A stretch of 64,000 bases of DNA from Candidatus Hydrogenedentota bacterium (GTDB lineage: Bacteria; Hydrogenedentota; Hydrogenedentia; Hydrogenedentales; JAGMZX01): positions 23,076 to 87,075 of the forward strand of contig JAKQEQ010000074.1 of NCBI GenBank assembly GCA_029556545.1, read 5' to 3'. This document shows, one piece after another, positions 54,062 through 64,000 of the stretch. The position numbers and the translations under genes were made by a program. The notes below the pieces were generated by a model, which ran no database searches, was not told the origin of the DNA, and saw nothing but the letters and a program-made list of their open reading frames with translations. Each line of letters opens with the position of its first letter. Position 1 is the stretch's first letter.

Positions 54062-57000
54062 TTACTCCACCACCAGCGTGACCGGCTGGGCGTCCGCGGC
54101 TACCTCCGGGTTGTAGTACTGATATGCCCGCGACGGCGGCGTCTGGGCGCGCAGCGGGAACTTCGCGCGAATCGTGTAGCTGAATTCGAGCGTGGCGTCG
54201 CCCGCGATCTTCTCGAAGTAGGTGATGATCTGCCGCCCCGTCAACTCGTACTTCTGCATGACCTTGTCGGCGACGAGTTTTTCGAGGTCGGGCGTCATTA
54301 CCTGGAATCCCGGCGGCACGCCGAGGTCGACGATGACCATGTTCGCGGTCTCCGGCCCGTTGTTCGTCACGTTGACCGAAACGGTGACCGTGTCGTCGAC
54401 GGCGAGCGCGGTCTTGTCATAGGTCACGTCGATCTTCAGCACGTCCCGCACCAGGGGCTTGGCGCTCCAGGGGGTGTAGTAACGGCCCACGATCTGATAC
54501 AGCATCGCGCCCTCGCCCGAGAACGCCAGGTTCACGGTGTTCTCTCCGGCGCGCGTTTGTTCGCCGAGGTCCACGAGCCGCATGACGTCGCAGTCCGCGG
54601 GCGTCACCCGCAGTTGCGCGACTTCGTCGCCGTTGATCGCCACGGCGATGGTTGCGTCCGCCTTCTGAGTCTGGCTGCCGAGCGAGACCGTCAGCGCCTT
54701 GAGCGCGAGGATGGTGGCCTGGGTCGAGCCCCAGCGCCCGTTCGCGTCCTTCTTCTGGATCAGATACGTCAGCGCCTTCGTCGTCGTCTCGGGATATTTG
54801 CCCGCGCGCAGGAAGGCCAGCGTGGCCAAGGCCGTCGCCTCGATATTCGCCGCGTCGCCGTGCGAGAAGGTGACCGTCTTCACGTCGCTTTCCCAGTGGG
54901 CCGTCTTGTCGTCTTCCTTGCGCAGGCCGTGCAGCGTTTCGAGCACCTGCGCGGTGAAGGCGTCCTTCGCGTTCCACGCCGCGAGCGCGTTGGCCACGAG
55001 ACCAAGCGTGTAGGGGTCCTTCGTATCCTTCCAGTTGGCGCGCAGATGCCCGATGGCCTTATCCGCCCGCGCGTCGGGATCGCCGCTGGTCAGCAGCGCC
55101 TCGATGATGTAGGCCGTCACCAGCAGCGTGCTGCCCTGGATGTCTTGCCACGACTCCGCGTGCAGGTAGCTCTCGTCCGGTTTCCACGAGCCGTCGTCCT
55201 GTTGCTGCCGCAGCAGCCACTCGCGCGTGCGCCGGATCACCTCTGGGTCCACCTCGTGGACCTGCGCCATGTCGTAGAACTGCTTCACGCCCAAGGCGGT
55301 GAGCGCCTTGTTCGCGGGCGCGTCGCCGAACCACGAGAAGCCGCCGCCGTCCACCTCGTAGGCCAGGAGCCGCTGGTAGCCCGCGTTGATGAAGCCCTCG
55401 GCCTTCATCTGGATTTCGGGGTTGATCTGCTCCGTGGCCTTCAGGTACTGCAGGATGAGAATGTTTGGATAGGTGACGGCAGTCGTCTGCTCGAAGCAGC
55501 CGAAGGGCATCTGGAGCATGCTGTCTAGGCCGTCCACGATCTGTGTGAACACGCCGGGATACACCCGCACCAGAATCTTGCTCGCGCCGGGCACGGCGTC
55601 CGCCGGAATCGCGATGGTCCGCGTCACCGCGCCGTCAAGCCGGTCGCTGAAGCTCACTTCCTGCTTCTCGCCGTCCGGCAGCACCTCGATTTCACGGCGG
55701 ATGGCGTCGCTCAGCTTCGATCCGTGGGCGTGGACCGTCATCTTGTGTTTGCCCAGTTCGACGACCTCGATGGGGAAATACCGCGACGTGACCTCGCCGG
55801 GGGCGAGGCGGATGGTCTGCTCGGCGGGGCCGTCGAGCTTGAACCACGGCGCGGCCTCGAAGGCGAGGCGAATGTCCTGCGCCGTTTCAAGATAGTTGTA
55901 GAGCGCGACGGGGATCGATATGCGGTCGTTCTGCGTGAGCGCGACGGGCAGGTCGATATCGACAAAGAAATCCTGGAACACACGGATGGGCGCGTCCATG
56001 CTGCCGAGGGCGCCGTTCGCCGCGTTGGCCATCGAGGTCATGCGCCATGTTGTGATGCTGTCCGCCAGCGTGAGCGGCAGCGTGGCGCGGCCCCGCGCGT
56101 CGGTGATCAGGGCGGGCTCGAAGAGCAGCGTTTCGGGGAAGTACTCGCGCACGCGCACCGGCGCGCCCGGCGCGGCCTCCGGAATGCCGAGTGCGTCGGC
56201 TCCGTCGAGCGCAGCGGCCGTTTCGGCCATCATGGGCGCGGGTATGGGTTCCGCGGCGAACATCTTCATTTGACGCACGGCCATGGGCCGGCCCACCATC
56301 AGGTCCGCGCCGCCGCGCCCAACCCCGTTGAGGTCGAGCAACTCCCGTCCCCACGCCGTCTCGGGGCCGATGTCGTCCGCGGTGCCTTTTACGCCGTCCG
56401 GGCCGTAGGACAGCATGGTGAAATGACCGCCCCATTCCTGTACGCCGCTGAAGTCGAATTCGTAGCGGTTGCCCCAGGGATCGAGCAACTCGTTTTCGCG
56501 CACGAGCCGTTTGCGCAACAGGGTCTTCAAAATGTCCTTCGGTGCGCCCTTTTCATCATCGATCAGCTTCGTGACGGCTTTCTGGATGTGCTCGACGTCC
56601 TTGCGGATGCGCTCGGCGATGGCGCGGTTGGCCGCGGCCTCTTTTTCCGCGAAGGTGTTGACCCGGACCGGGGGCGGGGGCAGGTCGGGAGCGGAGGCGA
56701 GAAGCACGCGCGCGGCCTGCTGTTGCTCGGGACGCCACGCGGCGGGCTCCTTGATCAGCGTGTCCAGCTCGAATCCGTGGATTTCGTAGCGCGGCTTCAT
56801 GATCTCGCGTTCGAGCGTGAAATAAATCTTCTCGAGGCCCGGGTGAATTTCCTGCAACGCGAAGACGCTCTCATCTACAATCGAGATGCCCAGCGCCGCG
56901 GCAGCGCCGCGTCCGGCGTCGTCGGTCACGGTGAATTGAAGCGTCGCCTCTTGGCCGGGCCGGTACGTCTCCGCGTCCAACGCGACGGCGATCCGCAGCG

Positions 57001-58915
57001 CGTCCGCCGGGTTCACGTACACGCGCCGCGCGTCGCGCAGGAGGTCGGTGCCGGGCGTGAACGTGTACGCCTGCAGGACGACGCTGCCCGACAGCGTCGC
57101 GTCGAGGTCCAGTTCGAGTGTCGCGCGGCCGGCGTCGAGGTCCGCCGCGCGGGTCATCATGGTCTGTCCGTCGCGAATCAGGTCGAAATAGACCGTGCCG
57201 GACGGTTTCGTCGCGAAGACGTCCGCGCGAAGGGTGTCGCCTACGTTGTACAACGCCTGATCGGTCCGCAGCAGCAGGCTGTCCACGCCGCGCGCGACGT
57301 CGAAGGTAAAGGTGTGATCCGCCGCGCGGCCCTCGCGGTCGCGGACCTGCACCGGCGTCATGGCCTTGTGCGCGTCGCGCGGCGTGACGGTGAACATGGC
57401 CGTTCCCACGGCGTCCGTCTGGAGGTTTACGGGCGCGGCCGCGCCGGGCGCGTGTACCGTGACGGCGGCGCCCTGCGCCGGGGACCCGTCGGGGTACGTC
57501 ACGAGCAGGTAGACGCGGTTCTCGAGGTTCGGGCGCAGCGCGCCGCCCTCGGGCACGGCATGGATGTTGAGCGCGGCGGCGGCGACCGACTTCATGACCA
57601 CCTTTTCCTCGCGATGGTCCGCCGTGTCCACGACGACGGCTTCGAGCCGCACGGAGGCCTGGCCCTGCTCGATGGGCGTGCCCGCGAAGTACGTCGGGAT
57701 CTTCGTCTCGAAGGTCCAATGCCCGTTCTCGTCAAGCATGCCTTCGAGCGTCGCGAAATCGGTGAATTCGATCTCGAATTTCGACGCCGTGACGGTCACC
57801 TTCCCGCGCGCCACCGGTTTGCCGAAGAAGTAGTCGGCCTGCACCTCGCCCTTGAGCGTGTCGCCCGGGAGGTAGTACGCGCGGTCCGTCGAGACCTTGA
57901 CCTCGAACTTGGGCAGCACATACCGATCGACGGTGACCTGTTTCTCCGTCGTGACGTCGTCGAGCAGCGCGCGCACGATGTACGGCCCGAGGTTTACCTC
58001 GGTCGCAAGCTGGAAATCGGCGAATCCGATGCCGTAGGCGTCCGTTTGCACCGGCTTCTTGAAGACCTTGTTGCCCTTCGCGTCCATGACCTCGAAAACC
58101 AGATCGCGATCGGCCACCGGTCTTCCCACGGCCATGTCGAGGCTGAGGGCGCGCAGATGGATCGTCTGCCCCGGCTGATACAGCGGCTTGTCGGTCGTCA
58201 GCAGTATCTTCGTTTTGCGCTGGATGGTAACGGCCTGCGTGATCGCATCCTCGCCGAGGCCGGGGGCCGCGACCCGCGCGATGAGTTCCGCGCGGCCCTG
58301 CATATCGCCGGGGACCTCGAAGCGTTCTTCGAGTGTGCCCTGCGCGTCGGTCGTTGCGGTGAGCAACTTGCGTTCCCCGGCGTCGTTCTTGAGATGCAAC
58401 TCGACGCGCGCGTTCGCGGCGGGCCGCCCCGTGGCGTGGTTCACCGCGACGATGCGGACCGACGCCCGGCTTCCCGCGAGGAAGTCCCGCGACGCGATCA
58501 GCCGCGTTTCGAGTTGCGGCAGGACGTCGATAAGTCGCATCGCGGCGCGCTCCTCGGCGCCGGGCGCGATGAGACGGTACTCGAGGAAACATTCGGGCAC
58601 GCGCGCCTCGGGCACGGACCCGCGAACGTCGATCACGGCCTCGCTGCGCCCCGGCGGCACGGAAATCCGCGCGGACTTGGCCAGCAACTCGTTGCCGTTC
58701 AAGTCCGCCACGCGAAACCGCAGGTCCCGATCGACCGCGCGGGACCCGGGGCTGGTGATCGCGTAATGCACGCGCATCCCCGTATCCCCGCGCTCGATCC
58801 AGATTCCCTCACGGTCCAGCCAGTGCGTGGGCGACTGGCCCGATACGCCGTCCACGAGACCGCCGAGAATCAGCGCTCCCGCCAGAAATGCCAACAACAG
58901 GTTTTTCTTCGACAT
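54062..58915 (-). CDS. Alpha-2-macroglobulin family thioester protein with pseudopilin-like insert
   Basis: 1617 residues; GAGGAG lies 9 nt upstream of the ATG. Signal peptide MSKKNLLLAFLAGALILG plus GLVDGVSG. Macroglobulin (MG) beta domains fill residues 35-740 (VTIQRKTKILLTTDKPLYQP, TVTASKFEIEF). Residues about 745-855 hold an insert described in the findings. The A2M core has ITDARGRATLPLTLADSITT, VFQDFFVDIDLPVALTQNDR and the thioester GCFEQTTAVTYPNILILQYL near 1139 with WFGDAPANKALTALGVKQF. The C-terminal receptor-like domain ends PVTLVVE. In the family it traps proteases attacking the envelope; the intact C-x-E-Q motif means the bond can form. No pbpC neighbour is seen. Confidence 0.93.
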   Translation of the reverse strand: MSKKNLLLAFLAGALILGGLVDGVSGQSPTHWLDREGIWIERGDTGMRVHYAITSPGSRAVDRDLRFRVADLNGNELLAKSARISVPPGRSEAVIDVRGSVPEARVPECFLEYRLIAPGAEERAAMRLIDVLPQLETRLIASRDFLAGSRASVRIVAVNHATGRPAANARVELHLKNDAGERKLLTATTDAQGTLEERFEVPGDMQGRAELIARVAAPGLGEDAITQAVTIQRKTKILLTTDKPLYQPGQTIHLRALSLDMAVGRPVADRDLVFEVMDAKGNKVFKKPVQTDAYGIGFADFQLATEVNLGPYIVRALLDDVTTEKQVTVDRYVLPKFEVKVSTDRAYYLPGDTLKGEVQADYFFGKPVARGKVTVTASKFEIEFTDFATLEGMLDENGHWTFETKIPTYFAGTPIEQGQASVRLEAVVVDTADHREEKVVMKSVAAAALNIHAVPEGGALRPNLENRVYLLVTYPDGSPAQGAAVTVHAPGAAAPVNLQTDAVGTAMFTVTPRDAHKAMTPVQVRDREGRAADHTFTFDVARGVDSLLLRTDQALYNVGDTLRADVFATKPSGTVYFDLIRDGQTMMTRAADLDAGRATLELDLDATLSGSVVLQAYTFTPGTDLLRDARRVYVNPADALRIAVALDAETYRPGQEATLQFTVTDDAGRGAAAALGISIVDESVFALQEIHPGLEKIYFTLEREIMKPRYEIHGFELDTLIKEPAAWRPEQQQAARVLLASAPDLPPPPVRVNTFAEKEAAANRAIAERIRKDVEHIQKAVTKLIDDEKGAPKDILKTLLRKRLVRENELLDPWGNRYEFDFSGVQEWGGHFTMLSYGPDGVKGTADDIGPETAWGRELLDLNGVGRGGADLMVGRPMAVRQMKMFAAEPIPAPMMAETAAALDGADALGIPEAAPGAPVRVREYFPETLLFEPALITDARGRATLPLTLADSITTWRMTSMANAANGALGSMDAPIRVFQDFFVDIDLPVALTQNDRISIPVALYNYLETAQDIRLAFEAAPWFKLDGPAEQTIRLAPGEVTSRYFPIEVVELGKHKMTVHAHGSKLSDAIRREIEVLPDGEKQEVSFSDRLDGAVTRTIAIPADAVPGASKILVRVYPGVFTQIVDGLDSMLQMPFGCFEQTTAVTYPNILILQYLKATEQINPEIQMKAEGFINAGYQRLLAYEVDGGGFSWFGDAPANKALTALGVKQFYDMAQVHEVDPEVIRRTREWLLRQQQDDGSWKPDESYLHAESWQDIQGSTLLVTAYIIEALLTSGDPDARADKAIGHLRANWKDTKDPYTLGLVANALAAWNAKDAFTAQVLETLHGLRKEDDKTAHWESDVKTVTFSHGDAANIEATALATLAFLRAGKYPETTTKALTYLIQKKDANGRWGSTQATILALKALTVSLGSQTQKADATIAVAINGDEVAQLRVTPADCDVMRLVDLGEQTRAGENTVNLAFSGEGAMLYQIVGRYYTPWSAKPLVRDVLKIDVTYDKTALAVDDTVTVSVNVTNNGPETANMVIVDLGVPPGFQVMTPDLEKLVADKVMQKYELTGRQIITYFEKIAGDATLEFSYTIRAKFPLRAQTPPSRAYQYYNPEVAADAQPVTLVVE

Positions 58916-59098
58916 GGTTCGGTTCTCCTCTCGGGCTCGAACACCCGCTCATTCTCTCTCAGACACCGCTGTGGGTCAAAGGTTCGCGCGAGGCGGACCG
59001 GGTGGACCGCGCGGGCGGGGAACGGTTGCTTCTTGGCCATTCCGTTCCTCTTGTCCATACTGTTAATCCCGTCGATCCCTTCGGTGGAGTCGGAACAT

Positions 59099-59127
59099 TT
59101 GATTTTCTTGAATTCATGGCTTATAGT
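59099..59127 (+). promoter_or_regulatory. Sigma-70 promoter of SGNH hydrolase gene
   Basis: TTGATT, 17 nt, TATAGT, about 58 nt before the ATG at 59185. Both boxes match four to five consensus positions. Confidence 0.5.
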
Positions 59128-59184
59128 GATCCTGCAATACGTTTGGGCGTAGTATTCGGGGGCTCCATCGGCAGGAGAGTTGCC

Positions 59185-61674
59185 ATGCAGTTACGGTCTT
59201 ATGCCCGGTTCATCCTTCCCCTTCTTGCGGTTCTTGCCGTGTCCGCGGTCGCCGAGGCGGGCTACACGCCCGGCATGCCCGTGCCGCGCATCCTGATGGT
59301 GGGTGACAGTTGGGCGGGCTTTGTGCAGGCTCTCAAGTCGTTCGATACGGTAATGCCCGAGTATTCGGGCCTCGATCAGTATGTTCAATTGGGCTACCGG
59401 ACTGCGATTATGGGCGCGCGCACAAACGAGTACCTCGAGACGGGGCTGGCGCTTATCGAGCAGGAACTGCTGGAACACCCGACGGTGGACGTGGTGGCGA
59501 TCAGTCTTGGCGGAAACGATTTTCTGCGCGGCTTGCCCGGCCATGATCGCTGGAAGCCCACGATGTCGCCCGCGCAGGAGCAGGGGCTCTTCACGGCCAT
59601 ACAGACCAACATCGCGCAGGTTGTCGATTTCGTTCTCGCCATGCGGCCGGACATCCGGGTCGCGATCTATAGCTATACGTTCAGCGGGCGCCAGCGCGAC
59701 GACTGCCCGATTGAAGTCGGCCAGATGGCGTTCGTTCGTTTTGAGGCCTACAAGAAGGCGATTGCCGACGCGCGCGACCGCGTCTCTTATGTCCACAATC
59801 TCGGTTTGATGCAGTATCACTTCGGCACGCCCGCCGTGCCCGACGAACAAGGCGGCACGCTGCCCGCGCTGCCGCCGTACACCGTGCCGTATCCCGGCGG
59901 TTATCCCGACTACGATCCCTGGCCGGGCGGCGACCCGCGCTACCTGGCGCCGCCCGAAGCCCTCATCGACGGCGACATTCACCTCACCGAAGTGGGCTAC
60001 GAGCACATCGCCCGGCGCTGCATGGACGAGTTTTTCGCCAAGTGGCTGTCGTGGCCCCGGGCGATCGAGATACTGCCCGTCGGCGGGCCCGCGTCGGAGT
60101 TCGTGTTCAAGGTCACGTTCAGCGAGCCGCTCAGCGGCGTCAATGCAAGCGACTTCTCCGTGTGGGCGGAGAAGCGGCATGCCAAGGGGACGGTGATCGA
60201 TGTGACCGGCGCGGGGGCGGAGTATTTCGTGACGGTGGCTGTCGACGCCGATCCCGAGGCAATACGCCTTGAACTCCTCGACGACGACAGCATCGTGGAT
60301 GGCGAGAGCAATCCGATCGGCGGTCCCGGCGCGGGGAACGGCGTCTTCACGCACAGCGGTCCGTTCGCATACGTGCCGATTGCCGAGCCCGCGGACGACA
60401 ATTTCGATGCGGCGCTCGAATTCTTCGATCTCGTGTCGACGCCGTACCTCAACCAACTCAACAACTTCAGCTTTCATCCCGACCTGTGCGACGCCAACGG
60501 CGGCGAGGTGAATATCGACGACCTCACCATAGGCGGGAACACCATGCTCGAGAGCTGCGAGTTCGGCCTCATAAGGGCCTGTCTGCACAATCCCGACTTG
60601 GACCACAGCGCCCGCGGCGGCGTCTCGCATCAGGCCGCCGTCGAACTCTGGGGGCACAATCTTGGACAGATGAAGGCGGATCTCAGCGGCGACGAGGGGC
60701 TTGCCGCGCGGGTGCTCCCCGGCATGGACACCGTCATGGCGGGCTTCATGACCCTCGGCGATTTCGACTCCGTCATTCTGCCCGTCCTGCTCCTTGCGTT
60801 TATTTCGAGCCAGGAAGATTTTCCCATTGATATCACCATGCCGAATATCATGAACTACGTGCGCCCCGACTACTTCTTCGCATGGTACGGCGACGCGGAC
60901 GCCGACGGTTTCCGCAATCGCACCGAGTACCACGCCTGCCGCGGCAAGGCAAGCCATAAGGAAGACTACCTCGCGGCGGCGCTCGACTCCGAGAATGTTC
61001 CTTCCGACATTGAGCTTATACTCGAGGAGTTGTTGTGGGATTTCGATGTGTCGGATACGAACGGCGACGGCGCGATCAGCCTCGCGGAAGCCCAGGAGAA
61101 GATGCCGAGTCTGACGACTGAAATCTTCGAGTACTTCGACCTCAACAACAACGGCAAACTGAGTCTCGCGGAAATCATGTCGCCCGTGGCCGTCATTCTG
61201 ATCGAAGAGTTCGAGGGATTGGACAGGGACCAGAGCGGCGATCTGACGCTCATGGAGTTGAAACGACGTCCCCTTGGTTTCTCGCAGGAGTTGCTTGACC
61301 GTTTTGACCTGGACGCGAGCGGAACGATTACCGAGGCTGAACTTCTTGCCGCAATCGATATTCCGGGCGAAGGCGAGGGTGAGGGTGAGGGTGAAGGTGA
61401 AGGTGAAGGTGAAGGTGAAGGTGAAGGCGAAGGTGAAGGCGAGGGCGAAGGCGAGGGCGAAGGCGAGGGTGAAGGCGAAGGCGAGGGTGAAGGCGAGGAG
61501 AAGGTGAAGGTGAAGGTGAAGGTGAAGGCGAGGGCGAAGGCGAAGGCGAAGGCGAGGGCGAAGGCGAAGGCGAAGGTGAAGGCGAGGGCGAAGGCGAAGG
61601 TGAGGGCGAGGGTGAGGGCGAAGGTGAAGGGCAGGCCGCAATTCACTCAGCCGACCAGAATGGGGACGGGCTGA
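59185..61674 (+). CDS. Secreted SGNH hydrolase with EF-hands and (GE)n tail, frameshifted
   Basis: 829 residues as read; start ATG 59185 with GCAGGAG upstream. Signal peptide LPLLAVLAVSAVAEAG. SGNH blocks: ILMVGDSWAGFVQ, ISLGGNDFLRG and DIHLTEVGYEHIA (catalytic Ser, oxyanion Asn, Asp-His). Then an immunoglobulin-like module (VTFSEPLSGVNASDFSVWAE, LLDDDSIVDGESNPIGGPGA), a domain with DANGGEVNIDDLTIGGN and YGDADADGFRNRTEYHACR, and four EF-hands (DTNGDGAISL, DLNNNGKLSLAEI, DRDQSGDLTLMEL, DLDASGTITEAEL). A (GE)n tract from residue 728 changes to KVKVKA near 61500 because one base is missing; the C-terminal module then lies in the -1 frame. Esterase of extracellular polysaccharide or lipid by type; substrate unknown. 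Confidence 0.88.
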   Translation: MQLRSYARFILPLLAVLAVSAVAEAGYTPGMPVPRILMVGDSWAGFVQALKSFDTVMPEYSGLDQYVQLGYRTAIMGARTNEYLETGLALIEQELLEHPTVDVVAISLGGNDFLRGLPGHDRWKPTMSPAQEQGLFTAIQTNIAQVVDFVLAMRPDIRVAIYSYTFSGRQRDDCPIEVGQMAFVRFEAYKKAIADARDRVSYVHNLGLMQYHFGTPAVPDEQGGTLPALPPYTVPYPGGYPDYDPWPGGDPRYLAPPEALIDGDIHLTEVGYEHIARRCMDEFFAKWLSWPRAIEILPVGGPASEFVFKVTFSEPLSGVNASDFSVWAEKRHAKGTVIDVTGAGAEYFVTVAVDADPEAIRLELLDDDSIVDGESNPIGGPGAGNGVFTHSGPFAYVPIAEPADDNFDAALEFFDLVSTPYLNQLNNFSFHPDLCDANGGEVNIDDLTIGGNTMLESCEFGLIRACLHNPDLDHSARGGVSHQAAVELWGHNLGQMKADLSGDEGLAARVLPGMDTVMAGFMTLGDFDSVILPVLLLAFISSQEDFPIDITMPNIMNYVRPDYFFAWYGDADADGFRNRTEYHACRGKASHKEDYLAAALDSENVPSDIELILEELLWDFDVSDTNGDGAISLAEAQEKMPSLTTEIFEYFDLNNNGKLSLAEIMSPVAVILIEEFEGLDRDQSGDLTLMELKRRPLGFSQELLDRFDLDASGTITEAELLAAIDIPGEGEGEGEGEGEGEGEGEGEGEGEGEGEGEGEGEGEGEGEGEGEEKVKVKVKVKARAKAKAKARAKAKAKVKARAKAKVRARVRAKVKGRPQFTQPTRMGTG
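61366..61631. repeat. (GGN GAR)n hexanucleotide tract encoding Gly-Glu
   Basis: About 44 tandem GGC/GGT-GAA/GAG units with a one-base deletion at about 61500 (GGCGAG then GA then GAAGGT). The tract links the catalytic part to the C-terminal modules and is prone to slippage. Confidence 0.9.
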
Positions 61675-61949
61675 TCGCGTTGACGGAACTGTTGCGCGTA
61701 ATCCAGTTCTACAACTCGGGCGGGCACCATTGCGCGGACGACCAGGGGGACACGGAAGACGGCTATGTGCCCGGAGCGGGCACGAATCTGTCGTGCCGGC
61801 CCCACAGCAGCGACTACGCGCCGGACGGCCCGGATTGGCGGATTTCGTTGACGGAATTGCTGCGGGTGATCCAGTTCTACAATTCCGGCGGCTACCGCTA
61901 CTGCCTGGAGGAGGGCACGGAGGACGGTTTCTGTCCCGGATTGGCGTAA
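61500..61949 (+). other. C-terminal dockerin-like module of the SGNH protein in the -1 frame
   Basis: The frame beginning at 61500 continues the GEGEGE pattern, then reads HSADQNGDGLIALTELLRVI, QFYNSGGHHCADDQGDTEDG, YVPGAGTNLSCRPHSSDYAP, DGPDWRISLTELLRVIQFYN and SGGYRYCLEEGTEDGFCPGLA-stop at 61949. It holds two copies of the unit [D-loop]-LTELLRVIQFYNSGG-x2-Y/HC..-TEDG-[YF]-.PG. This is a terminal module typical of secreted proteins in this lineage and likely a sorting, anchoring or cohesion signal. It would be joined to the SGNH protein if the missing base were restored. Confidence 0.85.
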
Positions 61950-62036
61950 GTCGCGGTCATTTTCGGGTATACTGTGCCTGCCCTTGATGACGGGGGACGT
62001 CCCGCCGGCGCGCGCGATGGCGCAAGGGAGGCGCGT

Positions 62037-64000
62037 ATGGACATGCGGCTATGCAAGAGCGGCGTGATGCTTCTCGTCGCGGGTTTGGCGTGGGTGGCGC
62101 CGATTATGGACACGGCCCACGCGCAATTGACGGAAGCGCCGATACCGCGGATTCTGTTGGTGGGGGACAGCTACGACGCGTTCATGTGGTGGTTTCGATC
62201 GTTCAAGGCGGTTTTGCCGGAGTTTCCGGGGCTGGATCGCTACATCGAGGTCGGTTCGCGAACCGCCATCATGGGGGTCAAGGCGTTCGAGTACAAGGAG
62301 GCGGAGTTTCTCGCGGACGTGGCGGCGGAACTCGCGCGGTATCCGACGATTGACATCGTGAATGTCGCGCTCGGCCCCAACGACTTCCTATCGGGGACCG
62401 TGAACGTGCTGCCCGGCGAGCCGGACCGCAAGGTGGACTGGGAGGATTTCCTCGACCATCCCGAGTGGGACGAACAGTGGCTCTTCGACGCTGTGGCCGG
62501 GCACATTGCCGTCCTCGTGGACGCGATCCTGGCCATGCGCCCGGACCTCCGCGTGACGCTTTGCGGCACCACTTACGGCAACCTTCCCGATGACATGGCG
62601 GCGGAACTCGGCATCGACCTCCTGCGATTTCAGACGGCGTGGGTGGACCTGTATCGAGCGATCAAGTCCATCGCCGACACGCGGGACCGCGTGTTCTTCG
62701 TACATAATTTCGGACTGCTCCAGCATCTGTACGGCGTGCCGGAGGCGGATCCGCCCGTATCGCCCGGCGTGTTGCCCATGCCGGGGGGCTATCCCGATTA
62801 CGATCCGTTCCCGGGCGGCGACCCGTCGTTGAATTGCCCGCTGGACCTGCTGCTGGACGATTTCGGCCACCCGACCCAACAGGGGTTCCTGGAGATCGCG
62901 CGTCGATGCGTCAGCGAGTTCCACCTGGAATGGCTGTCCTGGCCGCGAGCTCTCGAGATTCGCTTGACGGAAGGGGCCGCGCCGGAATACACGTTCCAGG
63001 TGACTTTCAGCGAGACCGTCACGGGCGTGGACGCGACGGACTTCGCGCTTGCCACCCGCGAATACGGGCCAGCCCCCGGCGCGGTCATCGAGTCGGTGAC
63101 CGGCTCGGACGATGTGCACCTCGTGACGGTGAACATGCATGAGGAGCCCGGATCGCCCCAACTGATCCTGCACGACGACGACAGCATTATCGACGCGGAC
63201 AGCAACCCACTGGGCGGTCCTGGGGCGGGCAACGGCGAGTTTACGGCGAACGGGGTGTTTTCGTTCGAGGACCTTGTCCCGCCCGCGGCGGGGGACTTCG
63301 ACGCCGCCATGCGCTACATGTGGGAAAGCTACTATCCGTATCGGCGTTATGCCGAGGAAGAAGTGGTGGGGTTGTCCTTCGACCCGGCTGAATGCGACCT
63401 GAACGGCCCGGTCAACCTGAGCGGCGAGCCCGTCATTATCGAAGGCAACGGATTCCTCGACGCGGTTGAATTCGCGCTGATATCCGCTTGCGTGAATGAC
63501 CCGAACGTTGATCTCTCCGAGCGCGGCGGCGTAACGCATGAAATCGTCGCGCAGGCGTGGGAAAGCAATCATCAACAGATGGTGGCGAACCTTGGCGGCG
63601 CGGACGGGCTGCCGTTGACGTTGTTGCCCGGCACCGACACCCTGCTCGCCGGATACATGACCCTGGGCGACGAGGTATCCTCGTTCATGCCCATCATTCT
63701 AATCATAATGCTGCGTGAGCAATTCGGCGAGTTCGTGCCCGGTATCACGACCCCAGAGATCGCGAACTACATCCGACTTCCTCAATTTCTCAGCTATCTG
63801 GGCGACGCCGACGCCGACGGATTCAGCAATGGAGAAGAATACCTCTACTTCGTCACCGCCGCCGACTACGAGACGGCCCGCGTGCAGTACCTCGAGGCCG
63901 CCTTGAACCCCGATCGATATCCCGGCGCGGAAGGCGAGGGCGAAGGTGAGGGCGAGGGTGAGGGCGAGGGTGAGGGCGAGGGTGAGGGTGAGGGTGAGGG
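62037..64000 (+). CDS. Secreted SGNH hydrolase paralogue, cut off by window end
   Basis: At least 654 codons from the ATG at 62037 (GGGAGG upstream); the frame stays open to base 64000. Signal peptide VMLLVAGLAWVAPIMDTAHA. SGNH blocks: ILLVGDSYDAFMWWFRSFKA, VALGPNDFLSG (GPND in place of the usual GGND) and DDFGHPTQQGFLEIA. It shares with its upstream neighbour the SEFHLEWLSWPRALEIRL region, the VTFSETVTGVDATDF module, LHDDDSIIDADSNPLGGPGA, YLGDADADGFSNGEEYLYFV and a (GE)n tail (from 63930), but lacks the four EF-hands before the tail. A tandem duplication, spaced 87 nt from the first gene's last stop. Confidence 0.88.
   Translation, partial: MDMRLCKSGVMLLVAGLAWVAPIMDTAHAQLTEAPIPRILLVGDSYDAFMWWFRSFKAVLPEFPGLDRYIEVGSRTAIMGVKAFEYKEAEFLADVAAELARYPTIDIVNVALGPNDFLSGTVNVLPGEPDRKVDWEDFLDHPEWDEQWLFDAVAGHIAVLVDAILAMRPDLRVTLCGTTYGNLPDDMAAELGIDLLRFQTAWVDLYRAIKSIADTRDRVFFVHNFGLLQHLYGVPEADPPVSPGVLPMPGGYPDYDPFPGGDPSLNCPLDLLLDDFGHPTQQGFLEIARRCVSEFHLEWLSWPRALEIRLTEGAAPEYTFQVTFSETVTGVDATDFALATREYGPAPGAVIESVTGSDDVHLVTVNMHEEPGSPQLILHDDDSIIDADSNPLGGPGAGNGEFTANGVFSFEDLVPPAAGDFDAAMRYMWESYYPYRRYAEEEVVGLSFDPAECDLNGPVNLSGEPVIIEGNGFLDAVEFALISACVNDPNVDLSERGGVTHEIVAQAWESNHQQMVANLGGADGLPLTLLPGTDTLLAGYMTLGDEVSSFMPIILIIMLREQFGEFVPGITTPEIANYIRLPQFLSYLGDADADGFSNGEEYLYFVTAADYETARVQYLEAALNPDRYPGAEGEGEGEGEGEGEGEGEGEGEGE
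63930..64000. repeat. (GGN GAR)n tract, start of a (GE)n tail
   Basis: At least 12 tandem Gly-Glu codon pairs at the window edge, matching the tract of the upstream paralogue. Confidence 0.9.

Follow-up and report, generated by a model that had tools for sequence, protein, structure and literature searches.

Predicted non-cellulosic cohesin/dockerin assemblies are known from uncultured bacteria, namely the complex of Ca. Stygibacter likened to a cellulosome (PMC8542988) and, in freshwater Planctomycetes, the proposed 'Planctosome' (PMC6461901). Both are predicted to hold peptidases and other exported proteins, like the carriers of the module described here, and both rest on recognisable dockerins. 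The type I dockerin (PF00404) of non-cellulosomal cohesin-dockerin systems contains two calcium-loop-helix units and is placed at the C-terminus or just behind the signal peptide of many exported proteins. A common C-terminal tag on large exported families is also the hallmark of the PEP-CTERM/exosortase system, which occurs in other Hydrogenedentota, while EF-hand domains (PF13405, PF00036) share the 12-residue pattern found in the first loop of our module. Here we describe a different module, found on approximately 100 proteins per genome, which resembles dockerins in anatomy and use, homology to them being weak.

The window analysed (64,000 nucleotides of a contig of Candidatus Hydrogenedentota bacterium, extending to the contig end) contains the following features of relevance:

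59185-61949, plus strand: GDSL-type, hydrolase-like exported protein that contains EF hands and a GE linker and ends in the double module (ORFs 58888-61674 and 61680-61949; GDSL and EF-hand Pfam matches)
61366-61628, plus strand: linker of GE repeats, in which the frame slips by one base at about 61498 (sequence, three-frame translation)
61644-61781, plus strand: Unit 1, comprising the calcium-type loop DQNGDGLIALTE (61653-61688), a helix (61680-61715), a hairpin and TEDGYVPG (translation, alignment, AlphaFold2 model)
61794-61946, plus strand: Unit 2, comprising the loop CxPHSSDY...DWRISLTE, a helix (61848-61883), a hairpin, TEDGFCPG and the protein end (translation, alignment, AlphaFold2 model)
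62037-64000, plus strand: second exported GDSL-like protein with a GE linker, open at the contig end inside the linker (ORF 61974-63998)

The GDSL-type protein begins with the signal peptide MQLRSYARFILPLLAVLAVSAVAEA, taken straight from the sequence. Three-frame translation revealed that its linker shares the frame of the GDSL ORF (58888-61674) until about 61497 and beyond this point is read in the frame of the module. At the slip site, around position 61498 (61490-61505), the sequence ('ggcgag|ga|gaaggt') is one base short, and from there the upstream frame reads KVKVKAKA and ends at the stop at 61674. Since the GE linker is continuous with the GDSL protein bar this one base, the double module is the C-terminus of the protein encoded at 59185-61949, split by a single frameshift, which is either an assembly error or genuine; no comparable slip was found in the linkers of the other short-headed tagged ORFs inspected.

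The whole module, of about 100 residues, occupies positions 61644-61946 (stop codon 61947-61949) and consists of two tandem LTELLRVIQFYNSGG units, the first extending from HSADQNGDGLIALTELLRVIQFYNSGGHHC to TEDGYVPG and the second from CRPHSSDYAPDGPDWRISLTELLRVIQFYNSGGYRYC to TEDGFCPG, immediately before the stop. Besides the LTELLRVIQFYNSGG segment, both units contain a Cys and end in TEDG-x-x-PG. The loop of Unit 1 is a canonical 12-residue loop of EF type (D-Q-N-G-D-G-L-I-A-L-T-E); that of Unit 2 follows the same pattern, but is made longer by an insertion. The units always occur as a pair, even in three C-terminal copies with an insertion between them. In an AlphaFold2 model (76 sequences, pLDDT 85) each of them forms a loop-helix (F-hand) unit with a small hairpin behind it, and the entering helix before loop 1 is absent. 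There is no hydrophobic stretch after the module, and the proteins finish in EDGFCPG, without a basic tail. The earlier note, made from the letters of the window, had proposed a duplicated module, each unit of which has a calcium-type loop, a conserved Cys and a TEDG-x-x-PG end, and these claims have been borne out. Its placement of the module behind a GE linker was correct as regards the adjoining repeat; the frame slip had been overlooked, and in some other genera the linker is loose or absent, i.e. common, but not obligatory.

No model of Pfam or NCBIfam matched the module at or above its cut-off, and a sequence search of the PDB returned chance matches only. EF-hand_6 matched 25 of 48 members weakly; those copies that were checked, including that of the window, scored below the curated cut-off. 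An EF-hand pair was therefore rejected, on account of these sub-threshold matches and of the missing entering helix, by which the module differs from EF-hand domains. Dockerin_1 (PF00404) likewise remained below its cut-off, with matches to 5 of 48 members (best E 0.025) and none to the window copy. A Foldseek search yielded nothing significant, its first hit being a dockerin (E 2.1). In the VIA-align results all ten rows were dockerins, at a Z of only 2.4-3.2, a specific but weak signal that makes dockerins the nearest predicted topology. When hhalign was used to compare the module with dockerins, loop 1 and its helix were aligned (P 0.001-0.004, probability 8-17%), the full-length and per-unit comparisons both being weak. 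The resemblance to dockerins with a different motif, as suggested in the earlier note, is in agreement with these results. Unlike dockerins, the module has longer units with a hairpin of about 20 residues each, conserved cysteines, a Glu at loop position 12, where dockerins have Asp, the LLRxIQFYN helix and an insertion in loop 2. It also lacks a Pfam match over cut-off, and cohesin binding is for the module only a candidate property.

A tblastn search of the genome with the window copy gave 113 matches (best other copy E 2e-55), which were merged into 107 distinct modules; this recurrence is far beyond chance. Defining as C-terminal those copies that end within 30 residues of the stop, 94 of the 107 are C-terminal and four internal, the other nine following a signal peptide directly; the 94 and the nine represent the terminal, portable placement on exported proteins that is also typical of dockerins. 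A crude rule recognised signal peptides in 46 of the 58 closed ORFs that bear the module at the C-terminus. Among the domains of the carriers are beta-helix, PKD, LRR, P-domain, Kelch, BNR, GDSL and EF-hand. A total of 20 matches lay within 700 bases of a contig end, against 5 expected, an excess indicating that the GE linkers break the assembly.

Alignments of 48-96 copies contain 9-11 invariant columns. Nine residues (L17, R18, D39, H54, D57, W65, L73, R74 and Q77) never vary in 96 copies, and LLRxIQ is nearly invariant among the copies. The median dN is about 0.26 and dS is about 1.5 or saturated (dN/dS approximately 0.17). Different codons are used at 47% of the residues that are identical between copies, and the invariant residues also have mixed codons. 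The copies are therefore under strong purifying selection, and their similarity is maintained by selection at the protein level and not by recent gene conversion.

Profile searches of 386 genomes detected the module in 41 of the 68 Hydrogenedentota; the other genomes (approximately 318) gave no match. The carriers are identified as members of this phylum by the named genome collection, and the module, among the genomes searched, is restricted to Hydrogenedentota, as expected from the lineage-specific docking-type module that had been proposed. Copy numbers range from 1 to well over 76 per genome, the values of 76 and of 76-84 obtained in two of the searches being lower bounds set by a score cap, and a first look at G021 gave 247 module candidates. 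At the loci read in other genomes nearly all modules end within about 14 residues of the stop. No match was found on plasmids. Literature searches for the exact motif, for Hydrogenedentota together with C-terminal and surface, and for Hydrogenedentes together with exosortase found nothing; in the libraries and literature searched the module is undescribed.

Two relatives without the module, G018 and G033, encode 64 and 47 Pfam dockerins, respectively, compared with 0-8 in the module-rich genomes tested. Eleven tagged proteins of this genome match 15 ORFs of these two relatives at E<1e-20, and 14 of the 15 have a double dockerin (DVNxDxxVNAVDVQLVINAALGL type) at the C-terminus. Most of these matches represent homologous domains and not strict orthologues, since many of them involve repeat-rich proteins. 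A clear-cut pair is provided by a trypsin-like protein with 50% identity over 333 residues between G026, where its C-terminus is the module, and G033, where it is a dockerin. Genuine dockerins are also encoded in this genome and have the same two placements as the module, being C-terminal or directly behind a signal peptide. PEP-CTERM counts are small (0-17 per genome) and do not mirror the module numbers; the replacement pattern is therefore observed only with dockerins. The 64 and 47 dockerins of G018 and G033 (L216-L255) are closely similar C-terminal ones (DVQLVINAALGL), and the same genomes encode multi-cohesin proteins of more than 1000 residues, i.e. they possess a large dockerin system of their own.

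The module is probably a lineage-specific, dockerin-like docking domain of exported proteins, which plugs into a common extracellular receptor. The two loop-helix units, at least the first with a canonical EF-type calcium loop, would fold as a small two-helix module that presumably binds calcium and may be stapled by pairing of the conserved cysteines. Situated at the end, less often the start, of exported proteins, and commonly behind a flexible GE linker, it would dock, by the invariant LLRxIQFYN faces of its helices, into a shared extracellular receptor protein. Approximately 100 diverse adhesin-like and enzymatic proteins could in this way be gathered into one assembly or retained on the cell surface, and the surface display of module-bearing proteins is what we infer; the module would fill the role played in sister genomes by ordinary C-terminal dockerins. 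The occurrence of dockerins on the same kinds of protein in relatives suggests an undescribed plug for cell-surface protein assembly, which Hydrogenedentota append terminally to as many as a hundred or more exported proteins each. A domain that is carried by about 100 exported proteins of a single genome, and by many others in the phylum, but has no Pfam or NCBIfam match over cut-off also implies that the exported proteome of this phylum is poorly annotated. The exchange of module and dockerin on homologous proteins makes a shared receptor directly testable, with five cohesins to be assayed against one 100-residue module, and an added orthogonal docking pair for protein engineering is a possible outcome.

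Other explanations have to be weighed against such a docking domain. There is a negligible probability that the module is a repeat without function, arisen by chance or gene conversion: the repetitive DNA of the GE linkers, with its surplus of matches at contig ends, is what such a repeat might leave, but the low dN/dS, the differing codons at about half of the identical residues and the retention of the module in 41 genomes contradict it, and we rejected it on the codon data. A structural cap, a calcium-dependent stabiliser or a self-associating domain, each acting without a dedicated receptor, would be consistent with the EF-like loop and with units that are always paired and are found on very different proteins. 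We consider this unlikely, because LLRxIQFYN faces kept near-invariant at high synonymous divergence suggest one shared partner, and the dockerins in the place of the module in relatives point to docking. The position of 94 of the 107 copies close to the stop, and the even tighter spacing at the loci read in other genomes, would suit a C-terminal sorting signal that is recognised by secretion or transpeptidation machinery, after the manner of PEP-CTERM/exosortase, LPXTG/sortase or the type IX C-terminal domain, and is then removed or covalently attached. A cleaved signal of this kind is nevertheless unlikely, and the sorting explanation as a whole very improbable, given the nine copies directly behind a signal peptide and the four internal ones, the missing hydrophobic helix and basic tail, and a genome that lacks sortase, exosortase and SprA. 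Sortase (PF04203) was found in none of 20 genomes, which led us to reject an LPXTG/sortase substrate. Exosortase (PF09721) is absent from the module-rich genomes G000 (this genome), G001, G006, G013, G019 and G040 and present in several genomes without the module; its absence from this genome, with the lack of a membrane helix and basic tail, was the reason for rejecting a PEP-CTERM/exosortase substrate. The module differs from PEP-CTERM tags in being a folded 100-residue domain with N-terminal copies and no membrane helix. As for SprA (PF14349), no match over cut-off was obtained in 20 genomes (a single sub-threshold hit contained five stops), and a type IX secretion C-terminal domain was rejected accordingly. 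The PEP-CTERM-like or LPXTG-like tag put forward in the earlier note is thus not upheld, and its strictly C-terminal location is refuted, by the note's own test, by the N-terminal and internal copies.

What the receptor of the docking domain might be is a narrower question. The earlier note had suggested looking for a co-occurring transpeptidase or cohesin-like receptor. Of 20 genomes, 18 encode cohesins, regardless of module number. They occur with and without the module, and are therefore not specific to it. This genome encodes five cohesin domains, two on C33 and one each on C9, C134 and C116. Docking of the module by the cohesins of these genomes, with a small cohesin-module protein as adaptor and a neighbouring membrane-helix cohesin as anchor, is the cohesin form of our preferred explanation and does not exclude it. 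Small proteins of about 265-300 residues, composed of a signal peptide, a cohesin and the module, are encoded by five module-rich genomes (G000, G001, G013, G021 and G040), and in G000 and G001 the cohesin-module gene adjoins genes for cohesins anchored by a membrane helix at the C-terminus. Where a genome has just 1-6 modules, the carriers are a trypsin-like protease and one small protein, which Pfam recognises as a cohesin in one of four cases; in the other three it is related to that one. The cohesin-module proteins and these low-copy carriers make cohesin a reasonable candidate receptor, to which the proteins of G000 contig 116 and G009 contig 29, joining an N-terminal module to a cohesin, can be added. 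On the other hand, cohesins are present whether or not a genome has the module, and genes for conventional dockerins, which may be the true clients, adjoin the same cohesin genes; we therefore regard cohesin as perhaps the receptor, and hold the adaptor-anchor arrangement only tentatively. It is more doubtful that Hydrogenedentota have a display system of their own, with a receptor other than cohesin, that arose alongside conventional dockerins and replaced them functionally in some lineages.

The trypsin-like protease bears the module in several families. No full-length relatives of it were found in G000, G001 and the f6 genomes, and on this ground it was rejected as an obligatory partner.

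The protein of G000 contig 116 (L259) and G009 contig 29 (L268), of about 900 residues and conserved in two families, consists of a signal peptide, the N-terminal module, a GE linker, a cohesin and a beta-helix-like region. Contig 33 of G000 (35.4-44.6 kb; L109, L262) carries a cluster in which genes for conventional dockerin proteins are accompanied by one for a cohesin-module protein and by two for cohesin proteins that end in a membrane helix; similar clusters are present in G001, G007, G013 and G015.

Two neighbours of the GDSL gene in the window also deserve mention. The second GDSL-like protein (61974-64000, plus strand) is a paralogue of the module-bearing one and passes into a GE linker just as the contig stops; since the contig end, which is also the end of the window, cuts this linker, any terminal module there lies out of view. 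On the other side, the minus strand at 54062-58915 encodes an exported protein of 1617 residues with the appearance of an alpha-2-macroglobulin and a thioester-like GCFEQ motif.
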